NCBI GenBank assembly: GCA_947561395.2
Contig: OX387187.1
Span: 37,305,829 to 37,369,828, forward strand
Length of the DNA stretch: 64,000 nt
Direction: 5' to 3'
Source of the DNA: Buxus sempervirens
Taxonomy: Eukaryota; Streptophyta; Magnoliopsida; Buxales; Buxaceae
Shown here one piece after another: positions 9,515 through 54,796 of this stretch. The translations under genes were made by a program, and so were the position numbers. The notes beneath the pieces are model-generated. The model worked only from the letters and a program-made list of their open reading frames with translations, made no database searches and was not told the DNA's origin. Position 1 is the stretch's first letter; each line of letters begins with the position of its first letter.

Positions 9515-9540
9515 GCTTTGTTATGTTTACTCGTTCGTCT

Positions 9541-19063: not shown

Positions 19064-19168
19064 TGTATCCGGCATATCAGGCCGGATACACCAGAGCTTT
19101 AATGTATCCGGTACTTTCCACCGGATACAAAGAGAAGCACTTGTATCCGGCCTGAGTTGCCGGATACA
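19064..19168. repeat. Array of three 27 bp dyad words, 39 bp period
   Basis: Words at 19064-19090, 19103-19129 and 19142-19168. Each has perfect 10 bp inverted arms (TGTATCCGGC or TGTATCCGGT with its complement) around a 7 nt centre that differs in each (ATATCAG, ACTTTCC, CTGAGTT). A fourth, identical to the third, is at 27042-27068 in the right LTR remnant. Confidence 0.9.
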
Positions 19169-25275: not shown

Positions 25276-27041
25276 ATGGTGAAAGAGAAGGAATGGTATG
25301 ATATATAAGACAGGGGTAGGGTTGTAATTTTTAAAAATTTTAAAGGTAAAGTTATATAAATTTTAATATTATATATAATAATTCGGTTCGGTTCGGTTTA
25401 GATAATACCTTAATTCGGTTCGGTTCGGTTTAACCGAACACCAAACCCAAAACCGAACCGATTTATTTCGGGTTAAGTTTTTTTGGACCAAAACCGAACC
25501 GAACTGTAAAAAAACCGAACCGAACCGAACCGAAGTCGGTTTGGTTCGGGTCGGTTTCGGTTTTATCCGGCCCGAGTTGCAGCCCTAGTTTCTACAGCAG
25601 TAGCGACGCCCTCAGTCCCAGTTCAGTCAGTTGAGGGTACAGAGTCTGACTCCGAGGATGGAGATAGTGGGGATGGTGGAGGGTCTGATGATGATGACGA
25701 CGATGATGGTGGAAATGATCATCAGGGAGGTGGAGGACAATCACATAGGCCAGGGGTTAGTCCTTTCACTGGGGAGGCAGTGTACACACATGCCACCCAG
25801 GACACCCACCATGGAGGGCGATACAGTCAGGGTGATCAGTCAGATCCAGAGCCACGTACTTTTCAGAGGCGGGGTAAGGGGAAGGAGAGGATTGGTGCCC
25901 AGGACGAGGATGAGATGTCTCGATCGTTTATGAGTATGGACATGGAGGGATCTAGCAGTACATCTTCACGTAGTTATGGGGATCAGAGTGGGCAGTATGG
26001 AGGATATGCATATCCATATCCTGGGCAGTTTCACACATCTGACAGCTATGGGTTATTTGATTTTCCCTCATATCCAGTTGCACCAGCTCCATATCCAGCT
26101 GCATACGGATATGGGTATGTCCCAGTGCCAGTGCCAGTGCCAGTGCCAGTCCCAGCTATCCCATATCCATATGGTTATTATCCTCCACCAGTCGTAGTAG
26201 AGGAGGAGGAGGAGGAGGAAGAGGAAGAAGATGAGGATGCGGGTGTTATTATTATGAGGGAGTATTATGATGAGTGTCCTCCTGTGGGCTTTATTGTGGA
26301 TTTAGATTAGGATGAGTATGAGGAGGTTGTGCGTCGTTACAGAAGTCAGTACGCAGGGCGCACGTCATGGAGGCGATATGTTCACATGCTTGAGAGACGA
26401 CGACAGCAACAACATCAGCATTTCCAGCCTTCTAGACATTCTACTTCTTATTGATCTTTGTAGTTTGTACTTTGTAATCTTGTGACTCTTGTCTCTTATC
26501 TCTTGACTCTCTTGTAGACTTCTACTTTGTATTTTGCATTTTTTGCAATTTGTCTTTTTAATTTTTATGATTATTAATCTATGTGCCTATGAGGCTATGA
26601 CTTTGTTTTACGCATGTAAGTATGTAACACATGTTACAAAGTGTGATGTAATGTGCTTACAGTTGTAGCCTTGTAATTGCTTATGTTCATGTGTTTGTAT
26701 TTGACTATTTGTTCATAAATTAGATCAAATACTTATTTATTCTATCTATTTTTGCATATAAATTGTATAAAATCATGTCTATTATGTTATTTTAGCTTAA
26801 TTATGTTTTTTATTTTTAAAACAGGCATTTCGTCGGCGTGCCGCCAATTTCGGCGAAATGGCCCTTCTGACAGTTTAATTTCATCTTTTTTAATCAAAAA
26901 AGGCGTTTCGGCGGCGTGCCGCCGATTTCGCCAAAAATGCTGTTTCGAGCCATTTCGTCGGAATTTCAGCGAAATTTCGTCAGAATTTCGTTTCGGCCGC
27001 CTACCGGCGCACCCCAAATCACCGAAAAGTCTATCCTTGCT

Positions 27042-27637
27042 TGTATCCGGCCTGAGTTGCCGGATACAGGGAAAAAAGCCTTTTTTCCAAATTTTAACAC
27101 AGGCAATACTTATTTACATGTAATATCGTTTAAGTAAATGTCCTCGTATTTTTTAATCTCCATTTACTTAAGATATTACATGTAAATAAGCAAACACCCC
27201 CCATTTGAATCCATTAAAAATAGTTCCAGACCCAAATTCCAAGTGAATAAAAAGTCAACTTTCCAATTCTAGGCAAAATTCCGATTTTTCAGGTCTGGAA
27301 AAAAGGTTCAATATGTTAAAACCAAGGTATTCGTCAAGATTTAAAATCTCAAAAAATTCTTTTATGCAATAACATGGCTAAAAACCTGATTACCGGGAAA
27401 AATTATCTTGAAATCTAGCTTTAAAAAATATTTCATTTTCTGGGGTCAAAAGTCAACAAAATTCAACCGGAAAAAGCTTGACTTTGGACAAAAGATTGAA
27501 TTCGGGCATTTTCCTTTTCCGTTTTGGATTCAAATGGGTTAAGTATCTCAAACCCAATACAAAGAATTGGAAATTCCAATAAAATATTTCTCTCCTTCAA
27601 GATTTATCAAAAATCGTGCAATTTTGGGGTGTCTACA
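27042..27637 (+). repeat. Right LTR remnant of the composite element
   Basis: Begins at the dyad word also found at 19142 and then matches the last ~560 bp of the LTR at 27686-30602, ending GGGGTGTCTACA. Its 5' two kilobases are missing. Confidence 0.65.
27109..27190. repeat. Long hairpin in the LTR end
   Basis: Arms of about 30 bp (CTTATTTACATGTAATATC ... and its complement ending TGTAAATAAG) around a ~20 nt loop. The same structure is at 30066-30145 with an almost unchanged sequence. Confidence 0.85.
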
Positions 27638-29726: not shown

Positions 29727-30019
29727 AAACCGTATACTCAGTGCGGTTTCAACAGAACCGTCACTATAAGTACGGTTTTTATGCAAATTTAACCAAACCG
29801 CACATATGCAAATTTAACCAAACCGCACATACAGGGCGGTTCAATTCAGTTACACTCGTCATGATTCTTGTCGACGTGTCTCAACGGCCGAAGCTTCCGG
29901 AAGCCACGTGGCAGCTCACGCAACAAGCATGAATATCAACCGTGCTGTGTGTGCGGTTGCAACCGTACATACAGGGCGGTTCAAACCAAATTAACCAAAA
30001 ACCACACATATACTACGGT
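29727..30019. repeat. Dyad-word array, ACCG...CGGT type
   Basis: Words at 29727-29749, 29756-29777, 29821-29841, 29937-29959, 29961-29981 and 30001-30019, plus an asymmetric copy near 29795. Arms are AACCG(T/C) with the complement; centres contain ACATAC-like bases. Spacing is irregular here. Confidence 0.75.
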
Positions 30020-30145: not shown

Positions 30146-30608
30146 GCAAACACCCCCCCCCCCCCCCATTTGAATCCATTAAAAATATTTCCAGACCCAA
30201 ATTCCAAGTGAATAAAAAGTCAACTTTCCAGTTCTAGGCTAAATTCCGATTTTTCAGGTCCGGTAAAAAGATTCAACATGTTGATACAAAGGTATTTATC
30301 AAGATTAAAAATCTCAAAAAATTCATTTATGTAATAACATTGCTAAAAACCTGATTACCGGGAAAAATTATCTTCAAATCTTGCTTTAAAAAATATTTCA
30401 TTTTCTGGGGTCAAAAGTCAACAAAATTCAACCTGAAAAAGTTTGACTTTGCATAAAAGATTGAGTTCGGGCCTTTTCCTTTGCGGCTTTGGATTCAAAT
30501 GGGTTAAGGATCTCAAACCCAATTCTAAGAATTGAAAATTCCAATAAAATATTTCTCTCCTTTAAGATTTATCAAAAATCGTGCGATTTTGGGGTGTCTA
30601 CATTGTGG

Positions 30609-32761: not shown

Positions 32762-33597
32762 TTTATAATAAAAAAGAAAAAAAATGAAAGAAATAAAACA
32801 AAAATAAATGGTTTATGCTCCCAAAGCAAAACTAACTTCATTGGATGGTTGCAGACACAAAATTATATATAGAATTCATTTTAAAGGTTTCCCAACATTT
32901 ATTCTCTCCAATGCTTTACACCCCTTTATTTCTTTATTTCCAGTATTTTATTGCCCTAATAGAGCCTTGTGGGGAAACTTTACTCAAAATTTCTGTTACT
33001 ACCCATCTCTCCACAACTATATATATGAGAGTTGCTCACAACTTTATAATAAAAAAGAAAAAAATGAAAGAAATAAAACAAAAATAAATGGTTTATGCTC
33101 CCAAAGCAAAACTAACTTCATTGGAGGGTTACAGACTTAAAATTATATATAAAATTCATTTCAAAGGTTTCCCAACATTTATTCTCTCCAATGCTTTACA
33201 CCCCTTTATTTCTTTATTTCCAACATTTTATTGCCCTAATAGAGCCTTGTGGGGAAACTTCACTCAAAATTTCTGTAACTACCCATCTCTCCACAACTAG
33301 AGTTACTCACAACTTTATAATAAAAAAGAAAAAAAATGAAAGAAATAAAACAAAAATAAATGGCTTATGCTCCCAAAGCAAAACTAACTTCATTGGATGG
33401 TTACAGACTTAAAATTATATATAAAATTCATTTCAAAGGTTTCCCAACACTTATTCTCTCCAATGCTTTACACTCCTTTATTTCTTTATTTCCAATATTT
33501 TATTGCCCTAATAGAGCCTTGTGGGGAAACTTTACTCAAAATTTCTGTAACTAGCCATATCTCCACAACTATATATATGAGAGTTACTCACAACAAG
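32762..33597. repeat. Inhibitor-gene promoter segment in three tandem units
   Basis: Units of about 280, 272 and 284 bp start near 32762, 33042 and 33314. Each runs from an A-rich AATAAAACAAAAATAAATGG segment through CTCCCAAAGCAAAACTAAC to CTCCACAACTA..CTCACAAC. Units 1 and 3 keep a TATATATATGAG box. Unit 2 has lost it (ACAACTAGAGTTACTC). Copy A has one unit. Confidence 0.9.
33571..33578 (+). promoter_or_regulatory. Proximal TATA box of inhibitor gene (copy B)
   Basis: TATATATA in unit 3, about 64 bases before the ATG at 33642. A second, distal TATA box sits in unit 1 at about 33018-33025. Confidence 0.55.
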
Positions 33598-33641
33598 GAG
33601 AAGAAGACAAAGAGTCTCCATCTCCAAAGAAGATTAAAAGA

Positions 33642-34190
33642 ATGGGGTACTGTTCCCTTTTCATTTCCTTCTCTTTCTTTCTCTTCTTCTTCAGCACCTT
33701 CCTCCATGGTGCAACTGCAACAACTCTCGTCTCCAAAACCTGCAAAAAAATGGCAGAGGGCGATCCAAACCTGCCCTACAGTTTCTGCCAAACTACCCTT
33801 CAAGCAGTCCCCAGAATCCGCTGTGCAAATCTTCAAGAGCTTGGATCGATCTCGATTGAATTGGCTCTATCCAATGCAAGCCACACGCGTCATTACATCA
33901 AAAAGATGTTGAAGAAGAAGCATGTTAACCACTACAAGAAAATACGGTTATCGGATTGCTTTGAACTGTACTCGGATGCGATTACTGATTTAAGAGAGGC
34001 AATCAAGTCCTACAATTCTAAGAAGTATTCGGATGCCAACGTACAAGTGAGTGCGGCCATGACCGAATCAGAGACGTGTGAAGATGGTTTCAAGGAGAAG
34101 AAAGGTGCAGTGTCTCCATTAACAAAGCGAAATGACAATATGGCCCAGTTGTCTGCCATGGCGCTTTCGATTATGAATATGCTTAAATGA
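33642..34190 (+). CDS. Secreted invertase/pectin methylesterase inhibitor-domain protein, 182 aa
   Basis: Copy B partner of the 2638 gene, same length, with about 20 amino-acid differences. Signal peptide MGYCSLFISFSFF...ATA; cysteines SKTC, YSFC, LSDC and SETC are all kept, and the extra Cys of copy A is Tyr here, as is usual in the family. It has three promoter units upstream, which may alter its expression relative to copy A. The stop is followed by a well conserved ~120 bp 3' flank. Confidence 0.85.
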   Translation: MGYCSLFISFSFFLFFFSTFLHGATATTLVSKTCKKMAEGDPNLPYSFCQTTLQAVPRIRCANLQELGSISIELALSNASHTRHYIKKMLKKKHVNHYKKIRLSDCFELYSDAITDLREAIKSYNSKKYSDANVQVSAAMTESETCEDGFKEKKGAVSPLTKRNDNMAQLSAMALSIMNMLK

Positions 34191-36004
34191 CTGTTGGTCT
34201 TAGTTTTATGTATGCGATCCTTGTTATTGTCGTTGATGTTATGTGATTGTCATGTTTTAATTTACTTGTGTCTTTTCTTCGCTTCTCTTCTCTTCCTGTT
34301 TGTGCACTGCACATCATATAGATCCCATTTACAGCATACACAGCAAAAAACATTAACGTGTAACCCACCAAAGTAAATGATCCGTGAGCCCCACATCACT
34401 ATGTTTTTCTGTTTGTGTTTAATTTCCATGGTTTAGGTATGTGTTGGATTCATCTATGTGAATTAACATAGAACTTATTGGTCTTCAGTGTATGTAAGTT
34501 TGTGTGAAGGTATTTGTGTGTGTGTTCTTTTTTTAATTTTAGATCTTAACAAGTAATCCAAGGGATGTATTCTTCAAAAGGTATTTAAGATTTGCCAATA
34601 TGTTAAGCATTGTGATGTTTATTATTGATTCCAAGTTAAGGATGCATGATTATTTAAATCATTCCCTTTGGGAGTATTTGGTTTGATTCTAAGTTACGGA
34701 TTATTTATTGATACCTTTTGGTGCTCACTTGACTAATTAAGGAGGCCATGAATGGTAATGATAAAGATGAGCTTACCCATTTTCTCTGGAATGTAAAAGA
34801 CACTTCAAGGAAGGTTTTTTAGTAAATAAACAAATGAATATAAAATCAAAAGATATAAATGGCAAAATTATAAAATTTGTAACATTAAATATGAAAGGAA
34901 TCAATGACACCACAAAGAATAATGTCATATATCTTTTTGCCTAATATGTAATAACCATAATATATGTATATTACAACTCAAGATTGCAATATCATTCTTT
35001 CTAGTTCCCCTCAATTTTGATCTTCTTTTGTTGGTGAACCATTTGCAAATCATCAGATTGTTACATGTGCCTTTTTGAAGCGCTCACTTCTTCAGTAGCA
35101 ATTCATACCAAATATTAATTTGTTAACAAAAATGATAATAAAAAAACAGAAATTTTGAAAAAACAGAAAATGATTTCTTAAGGAGAGCCATACTTAAAGG
35201 AATGATTTTAAGGGTTACTTAATTTCCTCCTATTTTTTTTAACAAATAGCGCACTGATCAAAACTGCAACTAAAAAAAGGCTACATGAAACAGATGCTTT
35301 CCAACCATCCAGATCGATCTCTCAAGCGTTTTTTTGAATACCTAAAATACTCTTCTCTAGATTATTGAATTACAAAAGTACTATTTTCATTTGTTAATTT
35401 TTACATTTATGCTTTTTCTTTTGTTACAAAAGTACTAATAAGACTTAGGTGTTATGAGTCTAATATCATCCTAAATAATGATTTAAACCTCAATTATACG
35501 TATCTAAAATATTTTGAATTAATTTAACCATAATTATAGTTATTTATAGTTATTCCAGTAATAAATATCTAATTACTAAGAGATTATTTGATAATGTAGT
35601 GTAAGATTTTGATTTTGCTTAGAGATTTATTCTTGAAATTGTCATTATTCATATCATAATACTTCTTCTTTAATACTTATCTAAATGTATTTTAATTTAA
35701 AAGAATTTTCACTTATATTTAAATATTAAATTTGGAAATAACCTTTTTTTTTAAGTTCTAGTCGTGAATGTGTGAAAAACTTATGGAATTAGATATTAGA
35801 TAAACCTTAATTATATTATACTTATCTAAAAGAATTTTAGTTAAATAATATAAACCTAAATTAATAATAAAAATGATTTCATGTATTTACACACAATATA
35901 CAATTTCAAAATTATCTATTCTTATCCAAATGAATTTTATTTAAAAAATAAAGGAAAAGACAATGACTAGGAAAATTAATCAATTAATCATATAATTATT
36001 TTTA
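34191..36004. other. AT-rich spacer, copy B
   Basis: Counterpart of roughly 4006-5700. No gene. Small indels relative to copy A. Confidence 0.6.
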
Positions 36005-36436
36005 GGTTAAATTACACTTACCTCCCTTGAGGTATGGTATAATTATACTTACTTCCCTTGAGGTTTCTGAAATAACACTTTCCTCCCTTGAGATTTGTGT
36101 ATGAGTCAAAATAACACTCTTTCATTGAAGTTTCCATCAAAACAGTAGTGATAGTTAGTAAAATAATTTGAACTGGACAAGATTACCCCCATTTAAGTTA
36201 AATGATAGTTATGTCTTAGGCCATTAAAATTTTTGTTCTCATCTTTATTAAGGGGTAATCTTGTCCAGTTTAAATTATTTTACTAACTATCACTACTGTT
36301 TTGATGGAAACTTCAATGAAAGGGTGTTATTTTGATCCATACACAAATCTCAAGGGGGGAAAGTGTTATTTCAGAAACCTCAAGGGAGGTAAGTGTAATT
36401 ATAGCATACCTCAAGGGAGGTAAGTGTAATTTACCC
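36005..36436. mobile_element. Mutator-type MITE, near-perfect palindrome (432 bp)
   Basis: Ends GGTTAAATTACACTTACC and GGTAAGTGTAATTTACCC are inverted, and the inversion extends through most of the element. A 9 bp target duplication TTATTTTTA is at 35996-36004 and 36437-36445, the size typical of Mutator-like elements. The matching place in copy A is empty, so insertion came after the duplication. No coding capacity. Confidence 0.9.
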
Positions 36437-36445
36437 TTATTTTTA

Positions 36446-37990
36446 TTATGATGATAAATCTATTAATTAGAAGGAATTGGAACATGTTTTTAGTAGATAA
36501 GGATATAAATAGGATATATGTTATTAAAAAAATATATACATAAGAAAAAATAAGTTCAAAATATGTTTTTAATTATAATTTTAAAAATACGTTAACTAAG
36601 ATTAGAAAATAAAAACATATAGAAAAAAAAGGAAACATAAAGATGTAGGAACCCAGAATATAAGTTAAAAATCAGAATCTCTATTTGGCTCATTATCCCA
36701 CCATTCTAAGTAATCGATTTCTTTAATAATAATATGCCATCCAAAGAGTTTGAATTGAAATAAAACACAAAAAATTGGTTTAAATGTGCAACTTTCATCC
36801 AATATGTCTAATAGTTAGTTACATGTCAGAGTTTAAGTAGAACATCCAATCAAATAAAAAGAAAAATCTTAGAAACCAATAAGCACATGCAGGGATAGGA
36901 AATTATGCAAATCAATGTGACATATATAATGGACAAAAATAATCCGGAGGATCTTCTTTTGACATGTAAAACAGACAAATATGGAAAACACAAGATTCAT
37001 GAACAAATATCTATTGCAATCTAATTGAAATGTAACTAGTAGCAATAAACAAATATTTTATGGAAGACAAGCTAATCGGAAATTAGAAAAAGAAAAAAAA
37101 AAACACACTCATTCAGGCCACGTTAGGAAATTTTGGGTTTCACTGAATGAAATTATTAATTGATGGAAAGTAATGAACTCATCCGGTTGATCTTCTAGGC
37201 TCTATTAGATTGGAGTCATGATAAGTCTTCTTTGTAATGAATTGTGACGTTTAAGAGAGCATGTGTTCTGATACTTATCTCAACTTTGAAAGGAGATAAC
37301 AGTTGGAAGAAGACAGGGATGGTATAATGTATGGTAGTGAATGGTTGTGAAAGTGGTTTAAAAAGCAGAGAAAATATAGAGAAGATGAGTGATATTTTAG
37401 GAAAGCAAAAATGGACAAACACTTGGGCTTCATGCTTTTTATAGTAGTAAAGATTGTTCTTTTCCTCCTTTATCTTTTCTCTTTTATTTTATCTCAACAC
37501 CATTTCTCGCATAGGCAATGAGGATAAAAATATTGTGAGCAATTTCAACAAAGTTATAGCTTTTTCTAATCATGTCATACAATACAAGAGAGAAAATTTT
37601 CTGGTTTTCTTGACTATTGATTTTTATGTTAAATCCTGTATTGACCATATTAACCTTATCAAATTTATTTTCACATGTGATTTTGTTTCTCATGAACTAT
37701 GATTCACACTTGTCAAGTTCCAATTCCTACCCTCGAATTCTTTTCAAATGATCGTCTTTAATTATTACTGAAACTTTCAATTCTAGTCCTCTAATTTCAG
37801 TTCCACAAAGGCCTTACACATATGGTCACGGGGCTCCCCCTAAACACTACATTCTAATTGACAGGGCCATTTCAGGGGCCCAAAGCTATTGTCTATCTGG
37901 ACCATACCCTTGCCCAAGGCCATCCCATTTGCAGGTGCTAGAGGTCTTAGTGTAGATGGAATCCTCTATCCAATTTCCTCTTTTACTCTG
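36446..37990. other. AT-rich spacer, copy B, continued
   Basis: Counterpart of roughly 5706-7168. A ~100 bp segment near 36635-36735 is not in copy A. No gene. Confidence 0.55.
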
Positions 37991-38210
37991 GTCCGTCACT
38001 AATCAAATCCTGTCATGTGGCATGCTTTGGTAATCGGGTCTTTGCAATATTACCTATCGAAGAATGCTATATGACATGTTTTGATTGATAGTAGTTTTCG
38101 ATCCGTCACTAATCAAATCCTGTCATGTGGCATGTGTTGGTAGTCAGGTCTTTGCAATATTGCCTCTCAAAGAATGCTATATGATATGTTTTGATTGATA
38201 GTAGATCATG
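37991..38210. repeat. Two tandem copies of the 110 bp repeat
   Basis: Units at 37991 and 38101, equivalent to the four units at 7169-7608. Confidence 0.8.
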
Positions 38211-38292
38211 AAACAAATATATTATGCAGTAATTGATACTAACGGAAGAAACTCATAAGTAAATGAACAACATGATCACACCAAGCAATCAA

Positions 38293-38823
38293 TTAAAACA
38301 TTGTAGTTATAGCTAGAGGTATAGCAGTCAACTGGGAGAACTCTTGATCATCCTTCTCTATTGGACATACAGGGCCTCCCTCCTTGAATCCATCTTCACA
38401 AGTCGAAGACGCGTCCAATGCAGCACTGACTTTGATGTTAGCTGTCGGGTAGTCCTTGGCCTTGAAGGCGTTGATGGCCTCTTTCATGGTAGGGACTACG
38501 TTTGAATAAAGACTCAAGCAATCCTGTAAGTGTGTCTTAATAGATGGCTCCAAAGTGGTGTTCTTCAAAAGGTCTGTAATATGAGAAATTATGGTGTTTC
38601 CCTTGGAAATGACTAAGTCCATGGAGATGAGACCAAGTCCTTGAAGGTCTGCAGTTTGGCTCCTTGGATCAGCTCGTAGAGATGTCACGCAGAAGTTGTA
38701 ACTTAGTTGCGGGTCGCCCTGCGATGCTTTCTTGCATGTTTCCTCAACGATATCGGCAATAACCAGCGCGCCATGAAAGGAGAGGAGAAGAAAGAAAGAG
38801 AAGAACAAGAACAAAGACCTCAT
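38293..38823 (-). CDS. Secreted invertase/pectin methylesterase inhibitor-domain protein, 176 aa
   Basis: Copy B partner of 7692-8222. ATG at 38823; signal peptide MRSLFLFFSFFLLLSFHG; cysteines EETC, YNFC, LQDC and SSTC plus VC near the end. About 15 of 176 residues differ from copy A, spread over the domain, with no frame damage. The open frame extends upstream to 39048 but, as in copy A, the signal peptide defines the start. Confidence 0.85.
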   Translation of the reverse strand: MRSLFLFFSFFLLLSFHGALVIADIVEETCKKASQGDPQLSYNFCVTSLRADPRSQTADLQGLGLISMDLVISKGNTIISHITDLLKNTTLEPSIKTHLQDCLSLYSNVVPTMKEAINAFKAKDYPTANIKVSAALDASSTCEDGFKEGGPVCPIEKDDQEFSQLTAIPLAITTMF

Positions 38824-40037
38824 TTTTTTGTTGCTTTTGAAAAAGTTTGGTTCTTCCTCTGGCATTCTCAACAGGCTGGGATTTATTGTCTGTTTGAAGT
38901 GATAAGCATGGAAAGTATTAAAATGAATACTATTTTGGGATTTTTCTTTCCTTTTCTCTGGGGTATGGGCTTCATGCCATATTCCATTGGCAGTTATTGT
39001 TTTAAGGTTTTGTGTGAGTATTCTCCCCATAAATCTGAGTTGATTCACAGATATATATGGTAGTAATTTATACTATATATAACGCGAGGAGCCTCCTTGG
39101 GAATCGTGCCAGCCATAATGTGCGCCCTCCTTAAAAAACACTATCGCATCATTCCTAAGATTCATTTATAAAGAGGGTATAATAGTCATAATTGTCTTAA
39201 TTCATTTAAAACTTAAGCACTTAAACTGTTCCTCCATTGTCTTTCTACATACGTGAAGTAATATACATCCACCTTGCTAGTATATAGAATACTAATGGAC
39301 CAGCATGTTCTTCCTAAATAAAGAACAAAAAAAAAAGGAAGATAAAATTAGGTCAAAAGGGAAGAAGAAGAGGAAGACGAGACCCATTTTGCTTAATGAG
39401 TCTTTAGATATGAAGCCCAATAGAGTGTTGAGCATGAGCTGCAATTATTTGCCTAAGCTTTTGTCCAATTTGGTTTTTGCTGTGGATCCCTTCAATTGAT
39501 TGTAAACAATAGTTAGAAATTTGTAGGTGCCTTGTGATTTAGGGTGCAAATCACCAACATCTTAAAATGGTTTGAATGAGATTGATCTGACCCACCCTCA
39601 CAAAGAGGGTGTGGAGAGTTACAGTTAAGAACAAAAAAAAAAAAAAAAATTTAAAGTAAGCTTTAAAATTAAGGAATTCAAAAATTAAATAAGAAATGAA
39701 AATTGACTACTTAATTCACAATAGAAAAAAGAAATATTATTTAATTTAACATAATACATAACAAGTTGTGTAAGTTGAGAATTGAAAGAATGAACAAATG
39801 CGCACAATTAATTAGTTTTTTTATTTTTCTTTATTTATTCTAGCATTGTTTGGACCTCAACTTGTGAGGGACCCAACATATCAAAACTTAATGGGGGCTA
39901 TCTGACCTGAGCCGGGCCCAACCATACTAAAGCCCTGGATGTGCGGTGGCCCATGCAAAGAAAGGCTTTTTAGTCCAACAAAACCTAACCTAAGGCATAT
40001 TACTCATTACTCAAAAAAATATTTGAACCCAGAATTG
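38824..40037. other. Spacer, copy B, with an extra ~165 bp segment
   Basis: About 39122-39285 is missing from copy A (which reads GTGCTAGTATATAG straight through). Part of it (TATAATAGTCATAATTGTC) resembles sequence near 59773, beside the third U2 gene, so it may be a small mobile repeat. No gene. Confidence 0.5.
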
Positions 40038-40188
40038 GTGGGGTGCGCCAGGAGCAAGCTACTGCGGCGGGCCCTCCCCCAAGAAAAATTAATTTAATAT
40101 CATGTGGGCCGATGGCCCACGTATCAGATATTAAACTGATAAGAACAGATACTACACTTGATCTTAGCCAAAAGGCCGAGAAAGGTAT
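40038..40188 (-). pseudogene. U2 snRNA pseudogene, 45 nt deleted, promoter USE lost
   Basis: The 5' half, including the GUAGUA branch-site sequence and Sm site, is identical in layout to 9319-9514, but a 45 nt deletion removes most of the 3' stem-loops (the sequence jumps from CGCCAGG to AGCAAGC in plus orientation). Upstream, a 39 bp deletion removes the USE: the plus strand reads AACGACAAGTTGG where copy A has AAGCGATGTGGGATT. The TATA box remains. Without USE and 3' domain it is unlikely to give functional U2. Confidence 0.9.
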
Positions 40189-40783
40189 GCTTTGTTACGC
40201 ATACTCGATCGTGTTTTATATTCATCTTTGACCGCTTTGTTTCTTGCTTAAACGACAAGTTGGAATCTTTAGAGGATGGGATGATCACGGATTGGAATAT
40301 TAGACCCGGAACATCTGATCCAGATATGGACCGAAATTGGCCGGTCTGGTGAACCATGATTATGATTTTTATTTTCTTGAAAATATTACGTTAGATTAAT
40401 AAGTTCGGAGAAATATATATAAGATATTCTTCCAGTATAAATGAAATCGTAATGAATAAGCGTTTGTTGCGGAAAGATTTAAAAAGTTATCTTTACATTT
40501 ACCAGAAAATGTCGTTTTTTACATAGATTGTATTGAAAGAGTAGTTTTATTTTTTGATTGAATATCTCTATTAACTACTTAGATCTTAACTCTCTTATCA
40601 TTATTAGTTTTTAGACAGTCTATTATACTATACGCATGGTTAGAAAAAATGGGGAGAAATCAGAACCGAAATATATATATATATATATATAGATTTGGAT
40701 TTTTTCAAAAATTAAGAAACCTTTATATAGCTGCAATGTAATTTCCAAAGTTTCAATGGATGATTTGTATGTTAAACCCATGA
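40189..40783. other. Flank of U2 pseudogene
   Basis: Counterpart of 9515-10139, with an AT dinucleotide run at about 40671-40692. No gene. Confidence 0.5.
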
Positions 40784-41420
40784 TGGGGTTGCTTAACGGG
40801 CCAACCTAGCATGGCACAGGCACATTTAGCCCGTGCTTGGCGGGCCGTGGGCTGGGCACGGCACGACTCACCTAGGAGATGGGCCGTGCATGGCCCGTAA
40901 CCCAATACCCCTAGCATGGCCCAGCCCGTGGCAAGGTTAAGGCTGGGCCATGGCACGCAGGCAAGCGGGCCACCCACGGCCCACATAATAAATGAATTAA
41001 AAAATTCAGAAAAATAGAAAAAAGGAAAAATAAATAAAAATATAAAAATTCTAAAAAATATATATTTATTATTCACATACATTTTTTACATATATTGGAA
41101 TAGAATTTTCCCCAAAATTGTAAATAAGGTAAAAGAACGTAAAAAAGCTTAAAAAAACCCAATTCTTTTTAATACAAGCCCATGGGCCGGTACGATATGG
41201 CACACTTAAAGAGTGCCATGTCGCCCGCATGCTTCGCGGGCCATGGCCCACCGGCCCATCATGCCTGGCAAGCTGTGCCTTGACGGGCCTAGTGCCCAGT
41301 ACCCTAGGCACGACATGGCTCGCTGATAGGTGCTAAGCCGTGCCATGCCGGACCGTGCCAAGCACAAGCACGCTTTAAGCGTGTTGGGCTGTGCCGGCAT
41401 CGGCACGATAAACAACCCTA
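40784..41420. mobile_element. Non-autonomous hAT-like element, copy B
   Basis: Same element and position as 10140-10781, with GC-rich inverted ends (TGGGGTTGCTTAACGGGCC / CACGATAAACAACCCTA). Confidence 0.6.
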
Positions 41421-42240
41421 CCATGGTTCTCCATGTTAGTTTCAAAAAAATTTTGTTGAAATTTTGTTGGCACACCACTAGTGTCACTACGTTTTTGTGT
41501 CATCAAACCAAAAAGCTTTGAAAAATCTTAAATAAAATTAAATGAAGTCCAAAAATTATTCAAAACAAAAGAGCAACATTTTTAAGAAAAACATATATGT
41601 ATATAACGTAAACTAATGCACATCTTAATATGTTTCTATATATTTCCTTTTCTTATTTGCCTTTACTTGTTAAATTATTTGACTTTCAAAAAAGTTAAAA
41701 AAAGTTAACAAAAATTATAAATTTTTATTGCTTGAACTTTTTTAAAGGTTGGTTTAGTAAAAATAAATTTTTTTTTAAGTTTTTAATATGCACTTCCTTG
41801 TATTTTGACTATCTGAGAATCATAAAATTATAAATAAATTAAAAGTACATCTAAAAGGTTCTTAAAATAATTAAAATTTCAAATTTAAATGTATAAAAAT
41901 TAAAATTATGAAGAAAGAAAGTCATCCCAGGTTGTAACAACTTGAATCCCCAATTCTCTCTCTCTCTCTCTCTCCCTCCCTCTCTCTTTTTTCTTTTAAC
42001 AGACCCCCTCCCATAACTTCTTTCTTCACCCCCTCTTTGTTTTTCTGTTTTTGTGGAGCATAGAACAACTCCAGTGTGTACACCTCCTACCTCCCTCTCC
42101 CTCTACCTTTCCTTTCTCTCTCTCTAAGTTGCAATCAAGAGAGAGGCAGATGGAGAGGGAGGGAGGAGGTAAAATTTTGTCAGCCCTTGCTGACAAAACC
42201 GGGAGGGAGAGATCTGACCTAGATCAGAACTTAAGAAGGC
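41421..42240. other. AT-rich spacer and CT-rich LINE leader, copy B
   Basis: Counterpart of 10782-11639, with a (TC)n tract at about 41957-41976. Confidence 0.5.
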
Positions 42241-44609
42241 TTTTTAGTATTGTGGACCAATAAGGTCATGTTAAATATTGTTCATTCTTCTGAATGGTTT
42301 ATTTTGTCTCAGATCTCCTTTAAAGGTAGGACGTGGCATATCCTCTTTATCCATGCAAGCTATCATATAGAGACCCAAAGTCACCAATGTGAGATGTATA
42401 GAGACCATGTGCTCAAGTTTCTTTACACCTTGGTTGCTACTAGGCGATTTCAATGCAATGTTATCCCATAGGGATAAGAGAGGTGGAGCACCATTAACTC
42501 GATGACAGGTGGACAACTTCGATAGTTTAATCCAGAACTGAAATCTCAGTGAATTATGCATGAAAGGTCCACAGTTTACGTGGAATAATGGTTAGCAGAG
42601 TTTTAATCGTATTTCAGAAAAAAATTGATAGTGGTTTTGCTTCTATTGACTTTTTCAATCTGTTTCTTAACCCAATTCTTTATTCTCAGCCTATTATTTG
42701 TGTCATGAAAACAAAGGGAGAAGGAGGCCTTTTAGATTTGAAGCATTTTGGTTACAGGAGGAGTCTTGTGAAGATTTAGTTGCTTCTTCATGGGCAAAAA
42801 CTTTAGAAGGAATGTCATTGTCTGCCAAACTAAATGTCCTGGCGATTGACCTCAAAAGGTGGAACCGGAACACTATCGGTAACATTCATAAAAAACTAGA
42901 ACAAATTAAATTTGAACTATCATTTGTTCAGGAATTACTGTCTTTTTCTCAGAATGATAATCTTTTGATGAGGGAGAGCTGTCTACAAAAAGAGTATGAT
43001 AAGTTGCTAACTCAGCAGGAACTCCTTTGGTACCAAAAATCAAGAGTAAAGTGGCTTCAATGGGGCGACAGGAATTAATATTGCATTTTTCCACAAGACC
43101 ACTTTAATCAGAAGGTAGAAGAATTTCATTTATTCTCTCAAAACTGTTGAGAACATGGAAATTGAAGATAAAGATGAATTGGCTTTGCACGTGGTATCCC
43201 ACTTTGAAAATTTATGCAAAGCCCAGCAGCAGTGGACCAATCTGGAGTCGCAGAATTTATTGATGAAACAAGTGTCTCAAATGCAAAATCAGCTTATTTG
43301 TCAGGTACCTTCTTCTCATGACATTTGGTTAGTAGTAAAGGAAATGCCTCCCTATAAATTTCCGGGTCCAGATGGTTTCCCTGTAATCTTTTATCAAAAA
43401 TGCTGGAATACCGTAGGACCGGATGTTTGTGCTTCAATCCAGGAATTCTTTAGAACGGGTCATATGTGTTGAACACCATTCCTACTAAAAGCTTAAGCTT
43501 ATAGTAGAGGTGAACTTTATGTATTTAATATATTCCTTAACACTCCCCCTCACGTGTGGGCCGGACTCAAACCCATTTTTAGGGAGGCCCTACACGTGGA
43601 ATAATTTTTTTCTCAACGGGTGGAGTGGAGGTTTGAACCCAGGACCTGGCGTTTGCCTAAGGCTCTGATACCATGTTGAACACCATTCCTACTAAAAGCT
43701 TAAGCTGATAGTAGAGGTGAACTTTATGTATTTAATATATTCCTTAACACTCCCCCTCACGTGTGGGCCGGACTCAAACCCATTTTTAGGGAGGCCCTAC
43801 ACGTGGAATATTTTTTTTTCTCAACGGGTGGAGTGAAGGTTTGAACCCAAGACCTGGAGTTTGCCTAAGGCTTTGATACCATATAGAACACCGTTCCTGC
43901 TAAAAGCTTAAGCTTATAGTAGAGGTGAACTTTATGTATTTAATATATTCCTTAACAATATGCCCCAAAATTTTAACCATACACATATAGCATTGATTCC
44001 AAAGATTGAAAATCCTGGGATGCTATCTCATTATCGACCAATAAGTCTTTGCGATTTTGTTTTTAAAATCATTTCAAGACTTTTGGTAATTAAAAAGACT
44101 AAGGTCTGTTCTTCCGCACCTCATTTCACCTGTCCAAGCAGCCTTTGTCCCTAATAGAAATATAAGAGATAATGTTCTAATCCACCATGAGGTGCCATGC
44201 TTTTAATAAGAAAAAAGTGAACAGGAACCACTCAAGAAGTGAATCTGCTAGGAATAAGGGCATGTTTGCTCTTAAGATCGACTTTGCAAAGGCTTACGAT
44301 AAAGTTAACTGGAATTTCTTAAGAGCTATTCTACTAATTCATGGACTTCAGGAACAAACAGTGAACCTGATCATGGCTTGTGTCCAATTTGTCTCTTATA
44401 GCATCATGTTAAATGATTCACCTGTTGGAAATTTCAAAGCTCAGAGAGACCTCAGACAAGGAGATCCACTATCTCCCTACTTGTTCATTTTGTGCCAATA
44501 GATGCTCTCTGTAGCGATTAATAGACTAGAACCGGAAGGCAGATTTAAAGGCATTAAGATCAAACGTGGGAGCATTTCTTTATCCCATCTTATGTTTGCT
44601 AATGATATT
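42241..44609 (+). mobile_element. LINE ORF2 fragment, copy B
   Basis: Endonuclease tail, then RT motifs (FPGPDGFP at about 43361, KIDFAKAYDKVNW at about 44274, LRQGDPLSPYLF at about 44453), cut off at the FADD motif, which reads FAND here. Interrupted by the TRIM at 43467-43957. Stops and shifts in several places differ from copy A. Confidence 0.8.
43467..43957 (-). mobile_element. TRIM/SMART-type LTR element with three LTRs and two internal parts
   Basis: Three 76 bp LTRs (43467-43542, 43674-43749, 43882-43957) alternate with two internal parts of 131-132 bp. On the minus strand each LTR runs TGTTAAGG...GTTCAACA. It is followed with no gap by TGGTATCAGAGCC, the primer-binding site complementary to initiator tRNA-Met, and each internal part ends in a GTGAGGGGGAG polypurine tract. 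The array has a 5 bp target duplication ATATG (43462-43466 and 43958-43962); copy A shows the empty site GGTCATATGGCCC near 12820. No coding capacity, so it must move with enzymes of other elements. Confidence 0.92.
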
Positions 44610-48665: not shown

Positions 48666-48691
48666 GGGGGGGGGGGGGGGGGGGGGGGGGG
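48666..48691. repeat. Run of 26 G
   Basis: Uninterrupted G homopolymer 17 bases before the LINE ORF1 start. The length is unreliable in any sequencing read. Confidence 0.9.
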
Positions 48692-51459
48692 CGCGTTCTT
48701 ATTGTACGATGGGGAAATTAGAGAACCAAATGAAGTCTCTTCTCATTCCTTCCAAACCGGATCGTGTTTTCTCGCTTAAAGAGGAGGAAAAATCTCGACT
48801 TGTGGATAAATGGAGCTACATACTTCTTCTGGATTCTATGGGTGTTTCCTTAACTACTAATATTGTAAGAAACTTTGTTTGCAAGGCCTAGCAATTTTCT
48901 AATGAGGTTGAGCTTTCAGCCATATCTTCATCGAGATAGCTTGTCCAACTCAGTCTACCATTGATAAAATTCTTTAAGGACATCCATGATTTATAAATGG
49001 TAACCTTCTGCTAATTGACTAGATTTTCTCTTTATCAGATGCGGAAACATTCTCCTCCTCCTCAATGGTGGTATGGACTCAACTCCATTCTTTACCGAGG
49101 ATTTTCTTTGACAAGCAAGTTGTGCGCACGTCGACCTGTGGCGCATGCGGGATGCAAGGGAAGAGGGGGGGGGGGGTTTAGGAGTCGCCATTGCATGATG
49201 GGGTGCAGGCAGACACCTGGATGCCTAAAGGATATCTATTAGGTGGTCTACGCATTGAGATTCTGGGAAAGGGACCGGTTACGGTTCGGGGAAGTCTGTA
49301 GATACCCCGGTCCGCCCCGTCAAAAGACGGGTCCCACGGGTCATCCTGGCTAGCTTTTAGCGAGTTAACTCATTTTTTACCCCACCCGTCCTAAGCAAGC
49401 ATGCTTACTTGATTTGGTCTTTGGTGGGGACCACATGCATGGCGTAGGTCCCCTTTTGTTTTGATTTTTATCTTTTTAGACCATGTAATATGAATGGTGG
49501 GCCTTGTTGGAAGGCTCACAAAATGCCAAGTTTGGGCTAGGGTAAGCCCAAGTCCCGTTTGGATTTGGCTTATTTGATTTGGATGTGACTTAAATATGTA
49601 AAATTGTTAAGTTGGTTTAGACTTTTAATGAGGGCCTAATGAGCTTGAAGGAGGCCCAAAGGTTTGGTCAAGTTGCCTTTAAAGCCCACCATTGGAGTGG
49701 ACTTGGATTGGGCAAGACGGGTGTGGGCCCCGTTGGAAGGCTCACATGGAAGCACCATTAGGCCCGAGGTGGGCCCAAACCGCACTATGTATACAGGTGG
49801 ACCCGAAAACCTTAGCAGTTTGATTTTCAGGGGAGGAGTAGGGGCCCCAACCCCCTGTGAGTCTAATGCAAAGTGGGGGTCATTCAACCAACCCACAGAG
49901 ACTTCCAAATTCAATTTTAAATGCCTAAATCCTAATTTTTAAAGCTTTTTTCAAAAGAGGAAAGGAGGGAGAAAGCTTGGGACCTCTCCCTCTCTTATTT
50001 TGAGCTTGAAACCCAAGGTAAGCAGGGACCTTAGTTGTCCCTGTTTTAGTGTATCAAGGACATTCCCCCCATCCCCTCCATGCAAAGGGGGGAGGCGGTG
50101 GCCCGGTAGGCTCGTGTCCATCTCCAAGGCGGCCAAACCATTCATTTATACATGCAACGAACAAGACATGTAAATGAACAAAAATGGAACATCAAAACCA
50201 TGCTAAAAGTAGTGGAGTGTGTGCTTCGAACCAGTGTACATAAAGAGTGAAAAATCATGCCTTAAACAAATATCATGGCATGCAAGTAATGAGGAGCTTG
50301 TGTGTGTTACATGGAATGTGTCTTAGAGATCAAAAACATATTAGGAAGATGAAATCAAAGCATGTAGATGATAACTAATAACAGCAAACAAACTCATGCT
50401 ATTACATGCCTATTCTAGTTAACAAGATCATGAAATCAAGAGCATATCCATCTAAGGAACTAACCCATGCATCAAGAGAATAAAAATGAGCTAATTATAG
50501 AAAGGAAGTGGGGGGTAATTAGGGGTACAGTGATCCAAGCGTGGGAGGGAGAAGCATATATAGGACTTTTCAATGAGAACATGACCTTAAATGGCCTCCC
50601 AAGACATCAAGACTTCCCTCTCTCCCTTACACGACCTCCATAGCACATCTTACCTCGCATGAATCACTTTTTGAAGGATGGATACCATCATAGAAAGAAG
50701 AAGGGAAAGGAAAGAATCCAAGGCTATGGAAACTTGAACACACTTTTTGTGCGCACCTAAATCTAGATCGCACACGGGGCGCACGTGGAAGTGCGTGCCT
50801 CGGGACTTTAGGAGTCACCACTGCCTGAGAGGTGTAGGCAAACACGGTGATTGCCTATATGGGTCTAAATCTGGTCTGCGGCTTTTTAGAGATCTAGTTA
50901 AGTCCTCGGTTACGTCCGGGGAAGTCCGGAGACACCCCGGCCCGCCCCGTCGGTTTGATGGGTCCTTCGGGTCTCCCTGGTTTTTGAGTCAGTTTCACCC
51001 TTCCTAGACCAGCATGCCACTTTGTTTGGTTTGGCAAAGCCTTCTGGAAGTGTGGGTCCCCTTTTATTTTATTTTATCTTTTATTTAGGTGAGGTGGGTC
51101 GGATGTGGGTCCCATGGGTTACCAAGATTGGGCTTGGGCCCAGTAGGGTTATTGGGTAACCCTTTTTTGGTTATTTATTTAATTAAATTATTTACACATG
51201 TTAGGGTTTGATGGGCTTGGATTTGGCCCATTAGCTAGGGATCAGGTGGCCTTGGGCCCGTTTGTTGAAAACAAGCCTGGTTTGGGGCCGATCAAAGGTG
51301 GGACACTTAAGTGGGCCCATGGGAGTCTTGGTGGGCCCATGGTCTTTCAATGGGCTAAAAATAGCCCAAATAGCCAATTTGAGTCGGGTTAAACCAACTT
51401 GGGTCGGTTCAAGCTCATTCGAATCGAAAAAGTGATTTTTTAAGTTATTTTTCAATTTA

Positions 51460-51562
51460 ACCGTATTTGATTCACGGTCTGGTCAGAACCATAAATTTAA
51501 TACGATTCAGGCCAGACCGTGTATCAAATATGGTCATGCCTGGACCGTAAATTTAATACGGT
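51460..51562. repeat. Dyad array, four 19 bp words at exact 28 bp steps
   Basis: Words begin at 51460, 51488, 51516 and 51544 (for example ACCGTAAATTTAATACGGT). The 9 bp linkers are CTGGTCAGA, TCAGGCCAG and CATGCCTGG. Confidence 0.92.
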
Positions 51563-52378
51563 TTTCGCCTGATTTGCGTTTTTTGCTCCGATTCTGGTCG
51601 GGATCACTCCGGCAAGCTTCTTGGGACCTCCGGCGACCTCAGTTGTAGTTCTCAGCACTTCTGTTGTAGTACATTTGCTTTCATCCATCTTCAAATCCTC
51701 TTTTTATCCGATGCTTTGATATGGAATAAGATTCCATTCTTCTTCATTGGGTTAAGTCACCTTCCGGTTGTGCAACAAGAGAAAGGAAAGTGGGAATAGG
51801 ATAGGGTTACATTAGAGATTCTAAAGAGGTCAAATCCCTCTTGCATTAGCAAATGAAATCAATTAAATATGTTAGTTCTCATATTTTCTTTCTTTTGCTT
51901 GTTTTACTGATCCACTCTCTTCCTTTTTCATAAAGAGACATTCATTTGTATGGGAGAACTCCAACAAAAGTGAAGCAAACGAGTTAGTAGCAAGGTAGTA
52001 GAATGAGAAGAGTTCAAAATTGTTTACATAAGACAATTCACATATATGTTGAAGAAGAAGTTGCTAGAAGAGTTACCACACTGTTACTTCTTTGATTTGG
52101 TGAGGTCGGGGTTCTCCGAGAATTTCGGCAGCGCTTCCGCGTCTCTATGGATTTCTTGAATTGGCTTTGAAAGGGGTTCTTTGGGTTTTCTATGCTTAAA
52201 GGGTGAAAAAGGAAGGTTTAGGCAAGGTTTAATGGTAGCCTAAGGGTATTTTGGGTATTTTGAGGTTTGGGTATTGAAAGTGGTAGGACTTGGGCAAAGG
52301 TTGGTCGTGGAAATGACAAAGAAGGAGAGGGAGGGTGGCTAAGGGGGCTAGCTTCCCGAAATGGGGGGCTGGCCCCCT

Positions 52379-52388
52379 CTATTTATAG
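52379..52388 (+). promoter_or_regulatory. LTR TATA box, inner element
   Basis: CTATTTATAG, 15 bases before the second dyad array. The equivalent in the outer LTR is at about 53624-53633. Confidence 0.5.
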
Positions 52389-52402
52389 AAAAATTTTCCG
52401 TT

Positions 52403-52710
52403 ACCGTATTTGATATACAGTCACGACATGACCATGTTACAAATACGGACATGGCACGACTGTATATCAAATACGGTCGCCGTCCTCGTGCTCAAATCTT
52501 GCAAGAATCACCAGCTGTCCCTCCGTACAGCGACGCTTGTCCTGCTTCCAGAAGGCTTGACCGTACTTCAAATACAGTCATGCCCTGACCGTATTTAAAA
52601 TACGGTCACACAAATCTTGCCGAATCGCCGTAAGGGACACGTGTCGTGCTCCCAGAAGCCGTGACAGTATTTGATATATGGTCACACCTTGACCGTATAT
52701 CAAATACGGT
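52403..52710. repeat. Dyad array, seven 19 bp words, 28 bp steps within groups
   Basis: Words begin at 52403, 52431, 52459, 52560, 52588, 52664 and 52692. Best examples ACCGTATTTAAAATACGGT (52588) and ACCGTATATCAAATACGGT (52692) have perfect 7 bp arms. Linkers between adjacent words are 9 bp, CATG/CACG-like at the left and (C/A)TG-like at the right. Confidence 0.92.
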
Positions 52711-53644
52711 CAGGCACGTTTTTAAAATGATTTGGATTCCAAAAATTTTGTTAATTTAACTTATTTAAAGATTTTATTCGATTTTCTTATTATTTTATTA
52801 AAAAATCTTAAGATTCTTCATCATTACAATTTAAAATATCTTTTATTAAATGTTCTTTTGCTTATTTTATTAATTTATGGGCAGTTTTGCAGCTGTTTTT
52901 ACCACATTGGCAGTTTTCTTGAAACTTCAACTGCCCATAACTTCTTCATCTGGTGTCCAATTTCAGCAAACTTTGTGTTGTTGGAATCGGCTCGGAACCC
53001 ACTATCCACTGGGATCAATTTGGGTAGCTGCATTGGGGTCGAGCACAAAGTCAACTTTTCGCTCCCCAAAAATTTGACCGGCTCATAACTTCCTCATCCG
53101 GACTCCGATTTCAGTAAACTCAGTTGCGTTGGAACCGTGTCGAAGTGCTCTTTTCAATGAGATGAAGTTGGATGGCCAAATTCATTTGAATCAAAAAATC
53201 AATTTTTTGACCCCCTCAGGGTTTGACTTTTAGTTTGACTTTTCATTTTTCTTTATTTTAGGGGTGCAAAAATCAGGTGCTAACACTTTTCATTTCATTA
53301 GTAAGCAATGTATATTACACCAAATAAGGAAAAGAAAGTTTACCTTATTGAAGGAAGGCACTTGAAGGCACCTTGGACTCCTTTGAAGACTTTGACAGTA
53401 GGTAGAGATCTTTCCTTCCTTCTCCAAGAGAAGCCTTGAGGTTGTTCTTGGTGAGGATGAAGAGAGGGAAGAGAGTTGGTGAGGTTTGGAGATGATTTGA
53501 AGTAGTTTTGATGGATTTGGGAACTTGGGGAGGGAGAACAAGATGATTCGGAGGCTGGAGTAGCTGAGGAGAAGGAGAAAAATCAGTTAGAAAAGACCAA
53601 CCCTGGTCCTGTGTTTGGGTTTTCTATTTATAGAGCACAGGCAG

Positions 53645-53869
53645 AAATCCGCACATATTATACAGTTTGGTCAAAACCACATAGTATGTGCAGTTTCGCC
53701 ATGCCCGCATACATTATGCGAACATGGCGCGTCTTTTCAACATTAATTAGGGGACAAATCTGATGCACGCAGTGCGTCGGTCATGTGTAGACGCTTTTCG
53801 TCCACCGTTTGTCGCGATTGGCCGCTCAAACTGCACGCCACAAAAATTGACCACATACTATATGCAGTC
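53645..53869. repeat. Dyad words of the outer LTR
   Basis: Words centred near 53656, 53685, 53713 and 53859, with arms of CACATA/TATGTG or CGCATA/TATGCG type. The first three are about 28 bp apart. They start about 15 bp after the CTATTTATAG box at 53624. Confidence 0.7.
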
Positions 53870-54796
53870 ATGACAAATCTTTCATATTTGCCCTTTTTCT
53901 CCCCTTTTTGGCTTGAGTTGACGGCTAAGATGACTCAGCCGCCCACTCCGAACCAATCAGTTTTTTCCAATTTTCATTTTTTCATTTATCTTAATTAATT
54001 TAATTAAGATAATTTAAGCTTTGACTGATATGTCCTTTGTTCTGTCTTTTCCCTATTTCCGCCTTTTAGCCCTTAAATTTGTCATTTATCAAGTGAGGCC
54101 CGCACACTTGCCAAGTGACGGGTCCTTCTGTGCTTAATTTACCATTGGGGTTGTTTTGCTCATATCTTCTTCATCTAAACTCCGATTCATGCAAACTTAA
54201 TTGCGTTGGAACCGTGTCAGGATTCTCTATCCATTAGGATAGGGTATGGCAATTAATTCAAGCTCGAACAGAAAGTCACTTTCTGCTCCTTTGGGTTTTG
54301 ACCTGTCTTTTAGGGTTTTGCTTTCTGACTTTTAGAGGGGTGCAAAAATGAGGTGCTTATACAAGTGGTGGAAAGATTGGGTGAAGCCTATGGAAGAGTA
54401 TTGGCGGTGGAGATTCCGGATAATCCTGATTTTCCCATTGTTTGTCTAAAATGGGATATTCCAATGGACAAACCCCTCCCTGTTGGGATCTATGTGGAAG
54501 ATCTAGAACAGAGAAAGATCTTGGTGACATTCTCATTTGAAGGTATTCCGGAATTTTGCTTTAATTGTGGTTTTATTGGCCATAATTTGAATGATTGCTC
54601 TAAACTTCTTCCGGGTAAATCCTTTTGTATGCCGGATAGTGGTTCTCATCGCTTGTATTCCAACGCTAACAAAGTTCTAAGCAGGAAGAGAAGAAACCTA
54701 ATTTTGCAGGAGGTTACAATGGAGAAGAAGGACTCATCCAACTCCTTGGAATCGATACCTGGTATTTCAGGTAGAAAGACCCATGGTCCTGCTATG

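Follow-up and report, generated by a model that had tools for sequence, protein, structure and literature searches.

The window, i.e. the whole stretch of 64,000 nucleotides of Buxus sempervirens DNA that was analysed, carries on its minus strand a long terminal repeat, LTR A, and a related neighbour, LTR B (Table 1). The PBS beside LTR A, TGGTGACTCC, was taken to be tRNA-Arg-like. The initial annotation had placed eleven dyads of the form ACCGTAT-n5-ATACGGT within an LTR, and all of them were present at their positions in LTR A, with 0-3 mismatches. The exact 28-bp step likewise held inside each of four blocks (51460-51562, 52403-52477, 52560-52606 and 52664-52710); the dyad distances between the blocks were 859, 101 and 76 bp, i.e. 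not 28. The linkers, which had been described as similar, were only loosely alike between units. The second array had been assigned to a position 15 bp after the TATA box, but the strand was wrong in this assignment. Since the LTR start (53285), the TATA box TATAAATAG (52387) and the PBS (50820) all lie on the minus strand, this array is located upstream of the TATA box in the U3 region, and the first array is located downstream of it.

The motif was matched 14 times in the window against 1.14 matches expected, and none of 100 shuffles reached 14. The three matches beyond the eleven were at 29729, in the U3 of another LTR, at 62640 and at 16383, the last of which was dropped because by eye it reads like a coding exon. 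The arms of the LTR A dyads extend to 9 bp, the array being TGACCGTAT-5-ATACGGTCA-5, and 23 of the 99 arm pairs are mismatched when nine-base arms are considered. U3 blocks 2 and 3 are parts of an 86-bp direct repeat with a shift of 104-105 bp. Block 1 with 2 bp on each side (52401-52479) was the most self-palindromic 79-bp stretch among 63,921 window positions, and 51458-51536 was the second best of that length; 51486-51564 was not outstanding, with 27 window positions equal to it. Nine unit pairs were compared, and three of them (51460/51516, 52403/52459 and 52664/52692) have fully reverse-complementary spacers.

Table 1. Positions of LTR landmarks and dyad arrays in the window
Feature	Position	Strand	Remarks
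LTR A (TGTTAGCACC... to ...CA)	50822..53285	-	Located by start motif and PBS; LTR B has homologous ends
PBS TGGTGACTCC of LTR A	50811..50820	-	Position beside LTR end
TATA box TATAAATAG of LTR A	52379..52387	-	
U3 block 1 of LTR A	52403..52477		Three dyads at steps of exactly 28 bp; TATA box lies 15 bp downstream
U3 block 2 of LTR A	52560..52606		Two dyads, 28-bp step
U3 block 3 of LTR A	52664..52710		Two dyads 28 bp apart; tandem copy of block 2 with a 104-bp shift, diverged
Downstream array of LTR A	51460..51562		Four dyads at 28-bp steps; TATA box lies about 825-930 bp upstream
TATA box of LTR B	53624..53632	-	Related neighbour of LTR A; U3 start at about 54360
Array of LTR B	53648..53722		Three diverged dyads (ACCGCAT-like) at 53648, 53676 and 53704
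Single further dyad of LTR B	53850..53868		ACCACAT-ACTAT-ATGCAGT
U3 of further LTR (TATA box 29526)	29729..30019	-	ACCG-n11-CGGT-like dyads
U3 of LTR D	19064..19168	-	Three dyads TGTATCCGG-n9-CCGGATACA, exact 39-bp step
Landmarks of LTR D	19208, 18909, 17089	-	Start (by eye), TATA box and PBS, respectively

The array of LTR B lies at the same distance from the TATA box as that of LTR A and shows the same 28-bp step; outside the TATA box, 43 of 101 bases of the array stretch are identical to LTR A. When a template of three dyads at 28-bp steps was applied with Watson-Crick pairs alone, 410 of 63,920 window positions fitted as well as LTR B. With pairs one transition away also counted, five positions did so, i.e. 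LTR B itself, three positions in the LTR A arrays and 62710; the last was the only fit outside the arrays of LTRs A and B and lies near the weak dyad match at 62640. Among 1,430 combinations of offset and step scanned in LTR B, the TATA offset of the array with a step of 28 ranked second, and the top rank (offset 30, step 42) represents 14-bp half-steps of the same array. A further LTR, with its TATA box at 29526, carries dyads in its U3 at 29729, 29757, 29822, 29939, 29962 and 30001, of which the first two stand at a 28-bp step with an inner gap of 6; its other steps are irregular. No array was seen by eye at a fifth minus-strand TATA stretch at 57275.

LTR D carries a word that is unrelated to the LTR A dyad, in a similar architecture that is not CpG-rich. 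Besides its dyads, the window contains no triple of perfect eight-base arms with equal steps, and 10 mononucleotide shuffles produced none. The outer units of LTR D match in inverted orientation at 7 of 9 positions. A dyad identical to that of LTR D was also observed near 27046 (27040-27070), within a segment that resembles a U3 and has sequence in common with 30162-30461.

In the B. sempervirens genome (676.5 Mb, 247 contigs), 4,904 dyad sites were found within one mismatch, compared with 112 for a reversed control. With exact arms, 11,266 sites of the C-C form, 1,381 of the A-A form and 6,698 of the mixed form were counted, 19,345 in all in the one genome, with a control count of 0 for each form. 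From contig 1, 34 loci of 5 kb around perfect dyads were taken, representing 34 of the 35 separate sites among the matches listed, and these fell into 10 clusters by sequence. The steps between successive dyads in these loci, counted up to 60 bp, numbered 91, of which 72 were exactly 28 bp, six were 56 bp and three were 27 or 29 bp. On contig 1, the 90 exact sites of the three forms located below 8.79 Mb gave 41 steps of up to 120 bp, 24 of them 28 bp and 31 of them multiples of 28, and different forms occurred together within arrays. Exact pattern matches in prokaryote genome contigs numbered six, all in bacterial records, and four patterns gave no match in public viral contigs.

Because these loci had been chosen by the dyad, further copies were obtained by a search with the TATA flank (window positions 52080-52392), which gave 40 scored matches among 1,859 candidates. 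From the 39 non-self matches 32 were fetched and, together with LTRs A and B, made up a set of 34 TATA-anchored LTRs, in which degenerate copies (e.g. L050, L062, L071 and L073) were kept. The best dyad at 9-18 bp from the TATA box, a distance measured from the 23-base word, had on average 6.76 of 9 positions paired, against a shuffle mean of 4.47 and a largest value of 4.85 in 200 shuffles. At 28 bp beyond this TATA-proximal dyad, a position that involved no further choice, mean pairing was 5.88 of 9; the other offsets between 18 and 39 gave no more than 3.26. The initial annotation had named copies lacking the arrays, or a step that was not kept, as evidence against its proposal; both the arrays and the 28-bp step were present in the copies.

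The position of the arrays relative to the promoter recurred as well. The dyad-picked loci contained 50 TATA-like matches, 24 of which had a dyad within 700 bp upstream, at 12-17 bp in 13 of the 24; the remaining 26 matches had no upstream dyad. A second array about 800-930 bp downstream of the TATA box was observed in 18 of 20 longer loci, with at least one dyad at +797 to +932 in these 18 and at least two in 16 of the 20. L063 had no dyads downstream, and L064 had dyads at +1412 and beyond. Arrays thus also occur far from the TATA box, i.e. downstream in the LTR or, in cluster 2, in the internal leader, and the number of units varies between copies.

Several classes of word were distinguished among the arrays. 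LTR A and L054 carry TGACCGTAT, most copies carry TGCCCGYA, seven loci (L047, L048, L051, L063, L064, L065 and L076) carry AACCGCAC-like words and LTR B carries AACYGYAY-like words. The words differ by subfamily as whole arrays with a common core CCG(T/C)A, and the upstream and downstream arrays of one LTR can differ in bases outside the core. Across the classes the core CCGYA is kept, as are the 28-bp step, the 7-bp gap and the distance to the TATA box. Arms carry the core as CCGYA/TRCGG, and the linker register reads CGGTCA-n5-TGACCG. In the 32 TATA-fetched loci, convergent half-sites were separated by 7 bp in 106 of 195 pairs and by 35 bp (7+28) in 74, and divergent half-sites by 9 bp in 62 of 100 pairs and by 37 bp (9+28) in 19. 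Convergent pairs in shuffled loci totalled 1.2. With the strict core, the window itself showed a convergent gap of 7 in five of eight pairs and a gap of 9 in none of the divergent pairs listed. The observed/expected ratio of CpG was 1.24-1.51 in the arrays of LTRs A and B compared with 0.53-0.67 in their flanks, and in the copies it was 1.29 and 1.32 in the arrays compared with 0.46 in the LTR sequence that separates the arrays. The distal U3 of the copies, which is AT-rich, reached 1.46. D (0.61) and E (0.92) were not CpG-rich.

The nature of the carrier element could be followed in cluster 2, where a PBS-like TGGCGACTC... is followed about 1.1-1.3 kb on by the array and then by a Retrotrans_gag domain, which was detected in L012, L014, L028 and L034. 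In L028 a minisatellite with units like GGGCCTCTGAAAGCCTTTGAATTTCAGA was seen by eye at about 2690-3400, after the dyad array of the leader and before gag. Each locus had two TGGCGACTC matches separated by 74-85 bp, either of which may be the PBS, and TGGCGACTCTGCTGGGGA was found in L028 and L034 and in near-identical form in L012 and L014. A 4-kb piece downstream of L028 (L077) contained RVT_1 and RT_RNaseH domains and ended inside RNase H; the L028 array, Retrotrans_gag and, in L077, RVT_1 follow one another within 9 kb. With gag and reverse transcriptase in line with the array, cluster 2 was identified as Ty3/gypsy, its array lying in the internal leader and not in the LTR. Array-bearing loci contained Retrotrans_gag and RT_RNaseH_2, and the PBS TGGYGACTC. 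The open reading frames scanned, which are fragments, yielded gag, reverse transcriptase, RNase H, G-patch, a copia piece in L032 or nothing, and the copia piece is on the opposite strand from the TATA box of the L032 array. An 825-aa open reading frame with a G-patch domain (E 6.4e-06) was observed in an Ogre-like element at L077:1-2475. The PBS of cluster 2 presumably matches tRNA-Arg. An Ogre-type PBS is described as antisense to tRNA-Arg in the relevant passage of PMC9289625. The carriers appear to be Ty3/gypsy elements of the Tat/Ogre type, to which the family of LTR A may belong, as judged by its related PBS and LTR ends.

No named LTR feature of this kind had been known to the initial annotation, but one exists in another superfamily, namely the RM boxes of Sireviruses (Bousios et al. 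2010, PMC2829016). As described in passages of that paper, these are repeated palindromes with a CGG-CCG core that are element-specific, are clustered upstream of the TATA box and form CpG islands; the boxes were absent from the classic Ty1/copia elements compared, and its authors were unable to name a common binding factor. The arrays described here share with them, so far as these passages go, the palindromic word with a CGG-CCG core that differs by element, the U3 cluster shortly upstream of the TATA box (except in cluster 2, which has its array in the leader) and the richness in CpG, which applies to LTRs A and B and the copies, unlike D and E. Copy number is also alike, with 11 in LTR A and 3-14 per 3' LTR in Sireviruses (PMC2829016, Table 3), and extra copies occur elsewhere in both, before env in Sireviruses and, in the present elements, in the leader or further downstream within the LTR. 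The carriers differ, Sireviruses being Ty1/copia elements with a tRNA-Met PBS and the carrier here being Ty3/gypsy where testable. Further differences are the strict 28-bp step and the 12-17 bp to the TATA box, with no fixed step stated for Sireviruses in the passages cited, and the two alternating half-site spacers of 7 and 9 bp.

Other systems showed more partial likeness. VANDAL elements are DNA transposons. Their motif arrays, of C-type and T-type, differ by subfamily and are described as bound by the element-encoded anti-silencing protein VANC (PMC5735166, PMC10398659). Unlike the dyads found here, VANDAL motifs are, according to the passages cited, arranged in one orientation, and their binding protein is known and element-encoded (PMC5735166). 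The likeness, as far as the descriptions go, lies in arrays of a short motif in non-coding DNA of a plant transposon, with a type that differs by subfamily. The Ty1/copia element Tnt1 has U3 boxes, including the BII tandem repeats, which are repeated cis-elements in a plant retrotransposon LTR. A symmetry of its box I is mentioned in PMC2829016. Tnt1 resembles the present arrays, by description alone, in having repeated LTR cis-elements, some of them symmetric, and differs in superfamily and in sequence. The SNBE has a 6-7-6 layout. It is described as a 19-bp semi-palindromic NAC site (PMC4141820). The dyads, when written as ACCGTA-n7-TACGGT, share its total length of 19 bp and its 7-bp middle gap, at the level of that description; their half-site letters do not fit the SNBE consensus. 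No report of such arrays was met in the literature on Ty3/gypsy or Ogre LTRs, of which coverage was partial, so that this is weak evidence of novelty; the passages cited of PMC6911290 and PMC10794571 do not report them.

The initial annotation had offered two readings of the arrays, operator sites for a dimeric protein or a run of RNA stem-loops. The former gave the best fit to the fixed core, the 7-bp gap, the 28-bp step and the narrow TATA distance in copies that had not been chosen by the dyad, the protein itself being putative. The geometry of the arrays, their recurrence in the genome, their position relative to the TATA box and the differences of words as whole arrays with the core kept were observed directly. 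We consider it probable that the arrays are DNA half-site rulers for a putative two-fold-symmetric protein beside the promoter, and we infer from them a protein, its dimeric state and an activation of transcription. Two convergent six-base half-sites with the core CCG(T/C)A and a 7-bp gap would constitute one two-fold-symmetric site; such sites would repeat every 28 bp, and the most constant array has its start 12-17 bp from the TATA box of the LTR, on the upstream side. The sites may be occupied by a dimeric DNA-binding protein, most likely encoded by the host, which would probably bind cooperatively and might then switch or boost LTR transcription. The second array, located in the transcribed LTR or, in another family, in the internal leader, might act as a downstream element. 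LBD/LOB proteins may be one lead to a candidate binder.

The arms were examined for compensatory changes, as had been proposed in the initial annotation. In the first dyads of the 34 LTRs (29 distinct), 78.9% of cells were paired, and 33 cells were changed on both sides compared with 17.7 in shuffles, a value reached by none of 500 shuffles; neither the pairs with a double change (5) nor the pair types (12) were more numerous than in shuffles. At one arm pair, the 73 U3 dyads comprised 49 C-C, 23 A-A and a single mixed dyad. Mixed dyads accounted for 7 of 32 in downstream arrays and for 8 of 94 in the dyad-picked loci. In the genome as a whole, pair 3 was close to independence, with 11,266 C-C (11,042 expected if the arms were independent), 1,381 A-A (1,157) and 6,698 mixed (7,147), and F was 0.063. 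These genome-wide counts represent copies and not events, i.e. they are weighted by copy number. The near-independence may partly reflect copy number, since the same mixed words recurred often among the matches listed. The rarity of mixed dyads in the sampled loci indicates that most mixed sites belong to families outside the sample. On uncorrelated arm mutations, which the initial annotation had also named as evidence against its proposal, the outcome was mixed: arm changes went together in U3 but were almost independent in the copy-weighted counts for the whole genome. As proof of an RNA structure the compensatory arms were rejected, given that the covariation in the alignment of 34 LTRs comes from few subfamilies and that the copy-weighted genome counts are near independence. 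A stem would likewise produce the arm agreement seen in U3; we attribute it to a small number of switches in which a subfamily changed its whole array. In our reading, each arm separately matches the half-site, and the U3 arrays have been homogenised by type.

An action of the arrays as RNA, with the U3 at the 3' end of genomic RNA forming long hairpins which either are useful to the element or yield, when diced, silencing small RNAs, is considered unlikely. Folds of the sense strand compared with shuffles gave z values of -10.6 for the U3 array, -8.4 for the downstream array, -3.0 for B, -9.9 for D and -2.9 for E, but the plus strand folded about equally (z -9.1), as any DNA dyad array would. 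The nested palindromes of the blocks, with their reverse-complementary spacers in three of nine unit pairs, and the covariation of arms in U3 are in agreement with hairpins. Palindrome clusters of Sireviruses, moreover, are described as attracting small RNAs and argued to be cis-regulatory (PMC10760457). Against stems stand the mismatches of LTR A, which were without wobble bias (7 of 23 being of plus-strand and 8 of minus-strand wobble type), and pair 7, which is C-A on the sense strand in 13 of the 34 first dyads and so forms no pair in sense RNA, but G-U in antisense RNA. Mixed A/G arms were also about as common genome-wide as independence predicts, in counts weighted by copy number, and Rfam gave no match at the gathering threshold in window positions 50700-54500. 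The stem-loop reading is thereby weakened, with the U3 covariation still in its favour.

A small chance is given to the arrays being targets of an element-encoded, sequence-specific regulator similar to the VANC of VANDAL elements, the words switching by coevolution with the protein. Word classes that change as whole arrays by subfamily with the geometry kept, much as described for C-type and T-type VANDAL arrays (PMC5735166, PMC10398659), would fit such a regulator, as would the occurrence of arrays in several non-coding places of the elements and the extra open reading frames reported for most Ogre/Tat/Athila superclade elements (PMC6317226). However, no candidate gene was found among the open reading frames scanned, all of them fragments, the VANDAL motifs are described as arrayed in one orientation (PMC5735166), and the differences outside the core between the two arrays of one LTR do not favour this explanation. 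In its fullest form, which we regard as rather improbable, a Ty3/gypsy lineage would possess its own control system, in which an element-encoded symmetric protein reads the 28-bp ruler in the U3, the transcribed LTR and the leader, and thereby relieves its own subfamily of silencing or sets how that subfamily is transcribed. Under such a system words would switch as whole arrays and the CCGYA core and ruler would stay. If true, it would be, to our knowledge, the first system of the VANC type from an LTR retrotransposon and a case of convergence with the Sirevirus boxes. It is similarly doubtful that the arrays are a neutral by-product, with slippage and template switching during reverse transcription making palindromic tandem arrays that are spread by copying. 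U3 blocks 2 and 3 are indeed diverged tandem copies, and unit numbers vary between copies, but slippage alone would not keep the core, the 7-bp gap and the narrow TATA distance while words and spacers vary, and the U3 of LTR D repeats an unrelated word at a 39-bp step.

On the preferred reading of the arrays as half-site rulers, they are best read as a repeated-motif box of the Sirevirus type in another superfamily, provided with a strict ruler. Palindromic LTR boxes were described as Sirevirus-specific among the Ty1/copia elements compared in the cited passages (PMC2829016). Their shared core and position in an apparent Ty3/gypsy lineage suggest either that one host binding activity has been exploited convergently or that a regulatory strategy is shared. 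The range of word classes and spacings that occurs naturally might make the binding factor findable, and thousands of potential binding clusters in the genome could affect nearby genes.

Further repeats were observed in the window. Very dense palindromes (GCGAAATTTCGC-like) are located at 19600-19900; of the 500-bp bins, the one at 19500 has 32 dyad matches, and the mean per bin is 5. Downstream of these, plus-strand open reading frames at 21284-24023 encode a BED zinc finger, DUF659 and a hAT dimerisation domain, and 158-bp tandem repeats at 20571-21070 lie between the dense palindromes and the hAT-type frames. Long homopolymer runs of G and C were seen by eye at about 48666-48691 and 30153-30168. 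About 11 kb are repeated in the same order at 2376-13372 and 32788-44533, about 30.6 kb apart, most matched pieces being 85-96% identical, and the first of the two copies contains pectin methylesterase inhibitor-like genes (Pfam PMEI).
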